Assembly: GCF_000769405.2 (NCBI RefSeq)
Contig: NZ_CP053439.1
Coordinates: 3,592,001 to 3,656,000 of the forward strand
Direction of reading: 5' to 3'
Length of the DNA: 64,000 bases
DNA from: Rhizobium brockwellii
GTDB taxonomy: Bacteria > Pseudomonadota > Alphaproteobacteria > Rhizobiales > Rhizobiaceae
The position numbers were made by a program, and so were the translations under genes. Positions 36,549-50,741 of this stretch are shown piece by piece. Position 1 is the first letter of the stretch, and each line of letters starts with the position of its first letter. A model generated the notes under the pieces. That model did not search any database. It saw only the letters and a list, made by a program, of their open reading frames with translations, and was not told the origin of the DNA.

Positions 36549-36631
36549 CGGACGCGCAAAAGGGGTGGACGCGCAAGCTGCGCGCTCGCCCTGTCGATCC
36601 GGCGTCTTCGCTGAAAATGGAAGGAAAGGGT

Positions 36632-36789
36632 GCGATCCACGACCACCGATGGATGTTTACGATCCTGGGTGCCTACAAACGTAGGTGGGCGCCGTGTGTC
36701 CAGGCCCACGGGCCTGGCCAGGGACAGCTCCCTTTGGATCGAGTATGGCCCCAGGGATTGTGGTTCCTGTCGAGAGGCGCAGACCGCAT
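36632..36789 (-). ncRNA. ssrS: 6S RNA
   Basis: About 158 nt on the minus strand directly downstream of zapA, the standard alphaproteobacterial location. The ends pair: GCGGTCTGCG (36787-36778) with CGTGGATCGC (36641-36632), ten consecutive pairs counting G-U. Inside, ACCAC pairs with GTGGT, and the apex is a perfect hairpin CCAGGCCC-GT-GGGCCTGG (36717-36700). A small hairpin CCTAC-GTTT-GTAGG (36685-36672) sits in the 3' side of the central bubble, as in known 6S RNAs. A TATATA -10 element lies at 36795-36800. 6S RNA binds the housekeeping RNA polymerase as a promoter mimic. The rest of the 309-bp spacer holds nothing else I recognise. Confidence 0.82.
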
Positions 36790-49643: not shown

Positions 49644-49835
49644 ATGAGCTTCATCGATGACGACCGGCCGCAGAAGAAAGTCGCCCACGAGGTCGGCGCC
49701 GATCTCTCCATGCTTTCGGTCGACGAGTTGAAGGCCCGGGTAGAATTGCTGAAGACGGAGATCGCCCGTCTCGAGGCCGAAGCCGGTCGCAAGGCCTCCG
49801 GGCGGCAGGCGGCGGAAAGCTTCTTCCGCACCTGA
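49644..49835 (+). CDS. DUF1192 protein
   Basis: 63-residue cytoplasmic protein typical of Rhizobiales. Sequence pattern: MSFIDDDRPQKKVAHEVGAD at the start, LSVDELKARVELLKTEIARLEAE (short coiled coil), and a C-terminal FFRT. GGAGG lies eight bases before the ATG. Function unknown; it is likely co-transcribed with the MFS gene. Confidence 0.88.
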   Translation: MSFIDDDRPQKKVAHEVGADLSMLSVDELKARVELLKTEIARLEAEAGRKASGRQAAESFFRT

Positions 49836-49908
49836 TCCGTTAAAACCCCAAAAAACAAGACTATGGGCCGATAAAACAGCCCGCCCCAAGTCTTAATTCA
49901 GCACAATG

Positions 49909-49923
49909 TTAATAAAATATTAA
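49909..49923. promoter_or_regulatory. CtrA box 1 (TTAA-N7-TTAA)
   Basis: TTAA at 49909-49912 and 49920-49923 are separated by exactly seven bases (TAAAATA), the full CtrA consensus. It lies just upstream of TTATAA (49927-49932) and CTATAT (49940-49945), either of which could be a -10 element for the RNA that ends at 50050. Confidence 0.7.
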
Positions 49924-49939
49924 GCTTTATAAGGTATTA

Positions 49940-50050
49940 CTATATTCATCCGGATTTCCTCTGGATCTCAGACAGTTTCCCAAGCGGTGAATTGGTCTGA
50001 TTTTTCTCCCTGTTTTACCTTGAGAGCCGCGTTTGCGGCTCTTCTTTTTC
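49940..50050 (+). ncRNA. Putative CtrA-linked small RNA with three hairpins
   Basis: A non-coding stretch of about 100-110 nt bounded by a CtrA-box promoter and an intrinsic terminator. Hairpin 1: ATCCGG (49948-49953), loop ATTTCCT, CTGGAT (49961-49966). Hairpin 2: TCAGAC (49968-49973) with GTCTGA (49995-50000). A pyrimidine-rich linker with TTTTTCTCCC follows. Hairpin 3: AGAGCCGC-GTTT-GCGGCTCT (50023-50042), then TTCTTTTTC. Exposed UUUCCU and CUCCC tracts could pair with Shine-Dalgarno sequences. The exact 5' end is uncertain. Whether it is a homologue of the cell-cycle sRNA EcpR1 of S. meliloti was not tested. Confidence 0.62.
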
Positions 50051-50084
50051 CTATGGCCGGCGCACTTCCACGAAACTGTGGAGA

Positions 50085-50099
50085 TTAACCCTTTCTTAA
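50085..50099. promoter_or_regulatory. CtrA box 2 (TTAA-N7-TTAA) upstream of rcdA
   Basis: TTAA at 50085-50088 and 50096-50099 are separated by CCCTTTC, again the full consensus. It lies 127 bp before the rcdA start codon, after the small-RNA terminator, and so is the site most likely to control rcdA itself. Confidence 0.7.
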
Positions 50100-50225
50100 G
50101 AAACGGCTTGCGCATTTGGGCTAATGATACCATCTTAAAGTCATAAAGACCGGGCCTGGAAACTTTTCCGTCGGTGCCGGCGTTACCTGAATATATGTAG
50201 CTGCGTGCGAACAGGGACTATTGCG

Positions 50226-50741
50226 ATGTCGGAAGTTGGATTGAACACGATCAGTTTTGCAGGCCGCGCCGCTGCATCCTCGCAGTTCAAGGCACTTTAC
50301 GCGGAAGGCATGTCGCTGGTCGAAGAGACTGCCGCCTATCTCGACGGCCAGGGCCGTGCCGCCTCCAAGGTTCTGCCGCGTATGGCCTCGGTTCTCTACG
50401 CCGCGGAATCGATGCGTCTCACCACCCGCCTGATGCAGATGGCTTCCTGGCTGCTGTTGCAGCGTGCCGTCAACAATGGCGAAATGTCCCGTGACCAGGT
50501 GCTGGCCGAAAAGAACAAGGTTCGCCTCGATGGCTTCAACGTCGACCGCGCCGCGCCCGGCTGGGGTGATCTGCCCGAATCCTTCCGCGACCTCGTCGAA
50601 CGCTCGCTGCGTCTGCAGAACCGCATTGCCTTGCTCGACCGCGAGATCTACCGCCCGTCCGAAGCAGTGATCGTTCATGATAATCAGAACAGCGTCCAGG
50701 CCCAGCTTTCCCTGCTGCAGACCGCCTTCGGCAACAACTGA
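50226..50741 (+). CDS. rcdA: RcdA-like protein (DUF1465), adaptor for CtrA proteolysis
   Basis: 171-residue, mostly helical protein of the DUF1465 family, to which Caulobacter RcdA belongs; RcdA helps deliver CtrA to ClpXP. Conserved segments: FKALYAEGMSLVEETAAYLDGQGR, LYAAESMRLTTRLMQMASWLL and LPESFRDLVERSLRLQNRIALLDRE. The start at 50226 (MSEVGLNTI) has GGGA upstream; an earlier ATG at 50205 is possible. Two perfect CtrA boxes lie upstream, suggesting that CtrA drives its own removal factor. A terminator follows. Confidence 0.85.
   Translation: MSEVGLNTISFAGRAAASSQFKALYAEGMSLVEETAAYLDGQGRAASKVLPRMASVLYAAESMRLTTRLMQMASWLLLQRAVNNGEMSRDQVLAEKNKVRLDGFNVDRAAPGWGDLPESFRDLVERSLRLQNRIALLDREIYRPSEAVIVHDNQNSVQAQLSLLQTAFGNN

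Follow-up and report, generated by a model that had tools for sequence, protein, structure and literature searches.

A BjrC1505-related small RNA gene beside rcdA in Rhizobium, its likely CtrA-type promoter and a candidate pairing with the rcdA ribosome-binding region

The locus considered here lies in a Rhizobium genome of 7.1 Mb (7 contigs), within a window of 64 kb, by which we mean the whole stretch of DNA that was analysed. Its features are collected in Table 1. Profile searches identify the protein-coding neighbours as DUF1192, rcdA and an rpmE-like L31 gene, and the assignment of the gene downstream as an RcdA homologue, made in a first-pass annotation of this DNA, is thereby confirmed; an alignment of relatives shows that the ATG start of rcdA is kept across the genus. 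The same annotation had described a non-coding stretch flanked by two full CtrA boxes and closed by an intrinsic terminator at 50023-50050. These two TTAA-N7-TTAA sites are exactly the ones present in the window, and the terminator is recovered as a hairpin spanning 50022-50043 with a run of T's that extends to about 50049. The ORF check shows no frame with an ATG start across 49948-50050, and differences in the length of the stretch among relatives argue against a possible short GTG frame. GANTC (CcrM) sites are absent from 49836-50228. A promoter scan returned no sigma-70-type site in the region of the putative -10 element, which was picked out by eye.

Table 1. Features of the rcdA upstream region, in window coordinates.
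Feature	Coordinates	Strand	Basis
DUF1192 protein gene, upstream neighbour	49644..49835	+	PF06698, E 9e-22
Distal CtrA box TTAATAAAATATTAA; 24 nt from box end to hairpin 1	49909..49923	+	motif scan; constant distance to hairpin 1 among relatives
Putative -10 element TACTAT	49938..49943	+	by eye, weak, conjectural
sRNA gene, divergent homologue of BjrC1505 (RF02356), ~103 nt	49948..50050	+	5' end inferred from hairpin 1
Hairpin 1 (SL1)	49948..49966	+	pairing over 62 sequences
Hairpin 2 (SL2), Rhizobium-type form CAGAC...GTCTG	49968..50000	+	pairing over 62 sequences
Unpaired linker with CUCCCUGUUUUACC	50001..50021	+	sequence and alignments
UCCCUGUU within linker, complementary to rcdA SD region	50007-50014	+	
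Hairpin 3, intrinsic terminator with T run	50022..50049	+	terminator hairpin and T run
Proximal CtrA box TTAACCCTTTCTTAA, before rcdA	50085..50099	+	motif scan
AACAGGGA in rcdA ribosome-binding region, fully complementary to UCCCUGUU of the sRNA	50210..50217	+	
rcdA (DUF1465), adaptor for CtrA proteolysis	50226..50741	+	PF07323, E 2e-58

The segment 49948-50050 folds into three hairpins with a predicted energy of -35.4 kcal/mol (z -4.3), a value reached by none of 200 shuffled sequences, and the fold is preserved in relatives. In an alignment of 59 diverse sequences, 91.6% of the base-pair cells are paired, compared with 36-48% when the structure is slid along the alignment, and changes on both sides are found at 11 pairs against 5.2 in shuffles (0/500 as many); a weaker covariation measure, which counts further pair types, is at least equalled in 62 of 500 shuffles. 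Among 62 Rhizobium-type sequences the paired fraction rises to 99.1% (29-46% when slid), with 99.0% in hairpin 1, one pair of which occurs as A-U in 30, G-C in 23 and G-U in 9 sequences, and 97.7% in hairpin 2. The terminator stem pairs in 62/62 sequences and never varies. Both-side changes within the Rhizobium type affect three pairs, again a weaker measure (15/500 shuffles have as many). Two exposed tracts had been proposed in the first-pass annotation as able to pair with Shine-Dalgarno (SD) sequences, and they fare differently: UUUCCU, which lies in the hairpin 1 loop, already lacks conservation inside the genus, whereas the C-rich tract CUCCCUGUU shows no change across the Rhizobium-type alignments. 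Hairpin 2 and the linker set the Rhizobium type apart from other members of the order, but UCCCUGU is contained in the sRNA match at 237 of 239 loci. A small hairpin around CCUCCC is predicted in two of the three other lineages that were folded and is absent from the window fold.

A permissive Rfam scan assigned positions 49902-50048 to the BjrC1505 family (RF02356) with 35.7 bits and an E-value of 3.6e-5 for 501 bases; in a search of the whole genome the E-value is 1.2e-4 and this is the single match at E<=1. The family gathering score of 50 is not reached, and the sole Rfam match over its curated cut-off in the window is a 6S RNA (RF00013, 86.9 bits) at 36630-36788 on the minus strand. BjrC1505, reportedly discovered in Bradyrhizobium by Madhugiri et al. 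in 2012, shares with the window RNA the position before rcdA, the plan of hairpins 1 and 2, the CUCCCUGU tract and the GC-rich terminator GAGCCGC...GCGGCTC, as well as a TTAA-N7-TTAA-like box within the first positions of the RF02356 model. It differs in hairpin 2, which in the Rhizobium type reads CAGAC...GTCTG, and in the linker, where UUUUUCUCCC replaces GACGCCUCCC. Given a score below the cut-off together with shared position and structure, sequence comparison identifies the window RNA as a homologous sister branch of BjrC1505 rather than a curated member.

The association of this RNA with rcdA extends well beyond the window. Among 41 genomes, the one under study included, RF02356 matches at E<=1 in 39 and exceeds the cut-off in 13, while of 14 well-known control genomes three match at E<=1, Caulobacter vibrioides not among them, and none exceeds the cut-off. 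The best match lies directly before rcdA on the same strand in 35 of these 39 genomes (own genome included), 11 of the 35 lying outside the genus of the window; of the remaining ones, three carry the match on a contig other than that of rcdA and one, G032, has only a weak stray. Across 297 genomes of the order the family is found at E<=0.01 in 249 and over the cut-off in 211 (controls, 0/14). The gene downstream of the sRNA is rcdA in 96 of 99 loci, these being the best-scoring together with hand-picked matches, with one rcdA 1.2 kb off; it is also rcdA in 68 of 68 testable loci among 80 named Rhizobiaceae loci that were found with a 25-base Rhizobium-type pattern and that include S. meliloti (4H41), Agrobacterium vitis, Shinella, Neorhizobium and Rhizobium species. 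Our own model of the RNA body matches 112 of 121 genomes of the family at E<=0.1 and, class-wide, 71 of 289 at E<=0.01, mostly weakly; clear class-level matches outside the order are confined to a few families, three (f61, f172, f174) with an adjacent rcdA and one (f93) without. By comparison of sequences, then, it is nearly certain that 49948-50050 is a stand-alone RNA gene, of the Rhizobium-type branch of BjrC1505 sRNAs and usually fixed beside rcdA; the gene is real, widely kept and already known to Rfam, although under the cut-off here.

Several exceptions to this arrangement were observed. Among those sRNA-less genomes that were checked for rcdA, eight lack it or hold pieces only, and nine, G032 among them, carry rcdA without a detected sRNA. 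In three genomes of one genus outside the order (G582, G486 and G360) the sRNA and its CtrA box stand away from rcdA, which in G582 lies 45 kb from the sRNA and has a frame with one stop; weaker extra copies of the sRNA occur in this genus about 9 kb further on. Another genome of the class (G527) has three more matches to the sRNA model (C10:48-329 and C15:27-108), two of them in tandem. At three loci of different families from which rcdA is gone (L034, L037 and L133, the last being that of G582) the upstream divergent neighbour is alike, quinone-oxidoreductase-like by eye, and the sRNA stays with this neighbour.

Three known sRNAs with cell-cycle connections were compared with the window RNA. 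The first-pass annotation had pointed to EcpR1 of S. meliloti, likewise a cell-cycle-related Rhizobiales sRNA of similar length. EcpR1, however, is encoded between divK-pleD and rpmG and has two hairpins, a different seed and a characteristic UCCGCCGCAUCU loop (PMC4414408), a motif absent from 49948-50050; with locus, structure and search all in disagreement this lead was abandoned, and the homologue is BjrC1505. GspR, another S. meliloti sRNA, touches CtrA control and has three stem-loops; flanked by SMc03844 and SMc03845, it acts as a repressor of ctrA and cspA5 (PMC5928217), and its homology was rejected on locus, structure and search. The nearest working precedent is CcnA of Caulobacter, which also has a CtrA-box promoter and recognises G-rich regions of cell-cycle mRNAs through a C-rich loop (PMC8959179). 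CcnA, of 182 nt, overlaps the replication origin and acts on ctrA and gcrA, and its authors report no clear homologue in S. meliloti (PMC8959179), whereas the window RNA adjoins rcdA, which is also its best-supported candidate partner. Homology to CcnA was rejected on the same grounds as for GspR, the window RNA sitting beside rcdA and not inside the replication origin, and we regard CcnA as a functional analogue at most.

The motif TTAA-N7-TTAA occurs in the window only at the two sites flanking the RNA, where 0.02 occurrences would be expected from shuffled sequence and none of 100 shuffles reaches two. The whole genome contains 49, so that two inside 176 bp make a notable cluster. The reversed control pattern, however, occurs 84 times in the genome; the motif is thus not enriched genome-wide, the count alone proves little and comparison between species must carry the case. 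The bare motif is a poor genome-wide predictor of CtrA sites in this genome.

The comparison was based on 155 distinct loci, which are nevertheless related, so that the counts do not represent independent events. In 99 of these loci TTAA-N7-TTA(A/G) begins 34-44 nt upstream of hairpin 1, at exactly -39 in 57 of the 99, while the 249 other offsets together yield one match. If one mismatch at most is allowed in the eight half-site bases, the box is present in 147 of 155 loci against 1 of 465 control windows farther upstream, and the 7-base spacer within it takes 81 different forms. The strict distal box is absent in 56 of the 155 loci, and in 48 of these a single base deviates; in one Rhizobium subclade TCAA replaces the first TTAA. 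The S. meliloti homologue (L271) has the box TTAACCGCAAATTAA, and in that species the distal and proximal boxes stand about 330 and 155 nt ahead of rcdA. At loci without rcdA within 1.5 kb the distal box is retained in 8 of 8, as TTAA-N7-TTAA in six and TTAA-N7-TTAG in two; five of these loci belong to separate genomes (G033, G040, G031, G632 and G718) and three to one genus outside the order. In G094, with rcdA 1.2 kb away, the box has one mismatch (TTTA-N7-TTAA). The spacer between the RNA and rcdA behaves differently in the two groups of loci: in the Rhizobium type it holds a box in 92/92 loci, the strict distal box being present in 61/92, whereas outside this type 48 of 116 loci have a distal box and none in the spacer, and a spacer box is found in 30. 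The rcdA-proximal box is retained in 70 of 70 testable named loci.

In Caulobacter, activating full CtrA boxes lie near -35, and at -39 at ctrA P2 (PMC4287350). The window has a full TTAA-N7-TTAA box near -35 if the transcription start is placed at hairpin 1. These comparisons suggest that the upstream box goes with the RNA and likely constitutes a newly recognised CtrA-type promoter, and that the sRNA itself is likely under CtrA control. Since the box sits at a fixed distance before hairpin 1, the first ~45 positions of the RF02356 model appear to represent promoter sequence and not part of the RNA.

The exact complementarity between the linker and the rcdA ribosome-binding region (Table 1) had been missed in the first-pass annotation, which was right about the arrangement and wrong about the relative. 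None of the 136 other translation starts of this genome, as crudely predicted with a longest-ORF finder that may include false genes, contains the hexamer CAGGGA. To set this match in a wider context, complementarity between translation starts and the tracts inside the sRNA match of the same locus was scored against control genes, defined as ORFs with conserved counterparts in five or more other loci; the rcdA starts were picked by a fixed rule and are uncertain outside the Rhizobium type. Exact complementarity of at least 6 nt to the own sRNA tract is found for 59 of 135 distinct rcdA starts, that is, under half of them, and for 93 of 566 controls; shuffled rcdA starts reach this length in 14% and shuffled sRNA tracts in at most 30%. 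The excess persists among starts matched for SD strength (32/70 for rcdA, 31/204 for controls), inside the family (33/68 and 66/417) and outside it (26/67 and 27/149), and amounts to 36% versus 16% when families are balanced. Family by family, rcdA is above the controls in 22, below in five and tied in three (p 0.0015; two of the 30 families used a pooled control). Pairing of rcdA starts with their own sRNA amounts to 5.38 nt, compared with 5.23 nt when sRNAs are swapped between loci, and only 3 of 500 swaps are as good (123 of 500 for the control genes). Because this gain is small and the sequences are related, co-evolution of the sRNA with rcdA is suggested, not proven.

Duplex energies, for which the background starts came from the same crude ORF finder, are less discriminating. 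Here the rcdA start is equalled by 16 of the 136 others; the corresponding figures elsewhere are 9/78 in G239 and 17/81 in G159, where the start call is probably wrong, and rcdA is best only in G673 (0/74). The ctrA start, tried as a CcnA-like target, was rejected because its duplex energy is not outstanding (23/136 other starts as good here; 6/81, 4/74 and 14/78 elsewhere). The start of gcrA (L328, with GGAGACAGGGC before the ATG) out-pairs all but one of the 136 background starts with the sRNA linker; over the four genomes the figures are inconsistent, at 1/136, 7/81, 4/74 and 63/78. As complementarity is enriched but duplex energy does not single out rcdA, we consider rcdA a plausible target and the favoured candidate, not a proven one.

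These data have to be weighed against the alternative that the RNA is a CtrA-driven anti-Shine-Dalgarno sRNA acting on many mRNAs, like other C-rich alphaproteobacterial sRNAs, with rcdA one of many fitting SD sequences and the linkage historical. The CUCCC tract does suit purine-rich SD sequences generally, gcrA pairs better than rcdA in this genome, loci that have no adjacent rcdA still keep the sRNA with its box, and the 3' part of the RNA resembles MmgR and SorY. Such a broad role is nevertheless somewhat doubtful in our view: the excess of matches at rcdA starts over the other conserved genes of these loci is clear, holds when SD strength is equal and recurs in most families, and the duplex energies from the four genomes show no consistent preference for gcrA.

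A second alternative would make the RNA the terminated form of an attenuated, cis-acting rcdA leader, in which the distal CtrA promoter gives a long rcdA mRNA whose ribosome-binding site is masked by the linker. The two elements are on the same strand with no intervening gene, multiple rcdA transcription starts are described in three agrobacterial lineages (PMC10469942), and in a read-through RNA of the window the linker is predicted to pair with AACAGGGA with a probability of 0.86-1.0. Only 41 of 133 genomes, however, predict a linker-RBS fold with at least four expected pairs, and we reject cis masking as a general device on this count; the survival of the sRNA and box at all eight loci without rcdA nearby and the terminator stem paired in every Rhizobium-type sequence likewise make a leader improbable. 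Least probable is that the distal box is just a second regulatory site for rcdA, with the intervening RNA outside CtrA control: one gene can have several CtrA sites, five at S. meliloti ctrA (PMC3616915), and agrobacterial rcdA has several starts (PMC10469942), but the distance from box to hairpin 1 is fixed while that to the rcdA match ranges from 136 to >500 nt, many loci outside the Rhizobium type have a distal box and none in the spacer, and the box is kept where rcdA is absent.

The reading that we favour, with a probability of about one half, is that CtrA activates the sRNA, that the sRNA restrains RcdA synthesis and that CtrA also binds before rcdA. Phosphorylated CtrA would bind the distal box, whose centre lies near -31 relative to the inferred start, and activate the sRNA, and would also occupy the proximal box. 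The C-rich tract (CUCCCUGUU) would pair with the rcdA ribosome-binding site (AACAGGGA), and this pairing would lower or delay RcdA synthesis while CtrA is high. The outcome would be an incoherent feed-forward loop, in which CtrA acts on the gene of its destroyer and simultaneously holds back its translation.

Published work on S. meliloti bears on this proposal. The rcdA gene is essential there and its level sets that of CtrA; a CtrA ChIP-seq peak is reported in the rcdA promoter region, and CtrA depletion caused no significant change in rcdA by microarray, qPCR or lacZ fusion (PMC4433202). The first-pass suggestion that CtrA drives both a small RNA and its own removal factor can thus be retained only in part: comparison favours an RNA gene with its own CtrA-type box and a second box before rcdA, while CtrA driving rcdA itself has the binding in its favour and the depletion response against it. 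A CtrA-driven RNA before rcdA is one possible explanation for CtrA binding without an effect on rcdA expression, although translational restraint by the sRNA would not alone explain an unchanged rcdA message unless pairing alters mRNA stability. In the three agrobacterial lineages rcdA has predicted CtrA sites besides its several starts (PMC10469942), one of which may be the sRNA start.

In the main texts of the open-licence literature we found neither a description of this RNA as linked to CtrA or rcdA nor one of a function for BjrC1505, whose name was met there as a table entry. What is new here is the upstream CtrA box that appears to belong with the RNA, and the enrichment of complementarity to rcdA. 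A BjrC1505 RNA placed under CtrA and beside the adaptor for CtrA proteolysis would give the family a concrete, testable role; the sRNA may act as a concealed brake on the cell-cycle circuit, and, if our reading is right, a conserved post-transcriptional step would be added to this circuit in the Hyphomicrobiales, the order of the rhizobia. More tentatively, and with less confidence than we attach to the locus itself, the RNA may form an order-wide arm of the CtrA destruction circuit, running from CtrA through BjrC1505 to the rcdA ribosome-binding site and delaying CtrA proteolysis until the RNA fades, in which case the CtrA sites that have been attributed to rcdA would, in many lineages, be those of the sRNA.

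A separate observation concerns the 3' end of the RNA. Positions 49971-50056 of the window contain a module (CUCCCU, ACUU and the GC-rich terminator) that aligns alike with BjrC1505, MmgR / suhB (RF00519) and SorY (RF02651). The scores for the latter two, 22.9 bits against a cut-off of 41 for RF00519 and 19.4 bits against 111 for RF02651, fall short of membership in either family; the shared module may reflect one ancestral 3' end common to several alphaproteobacterial sRNAs.
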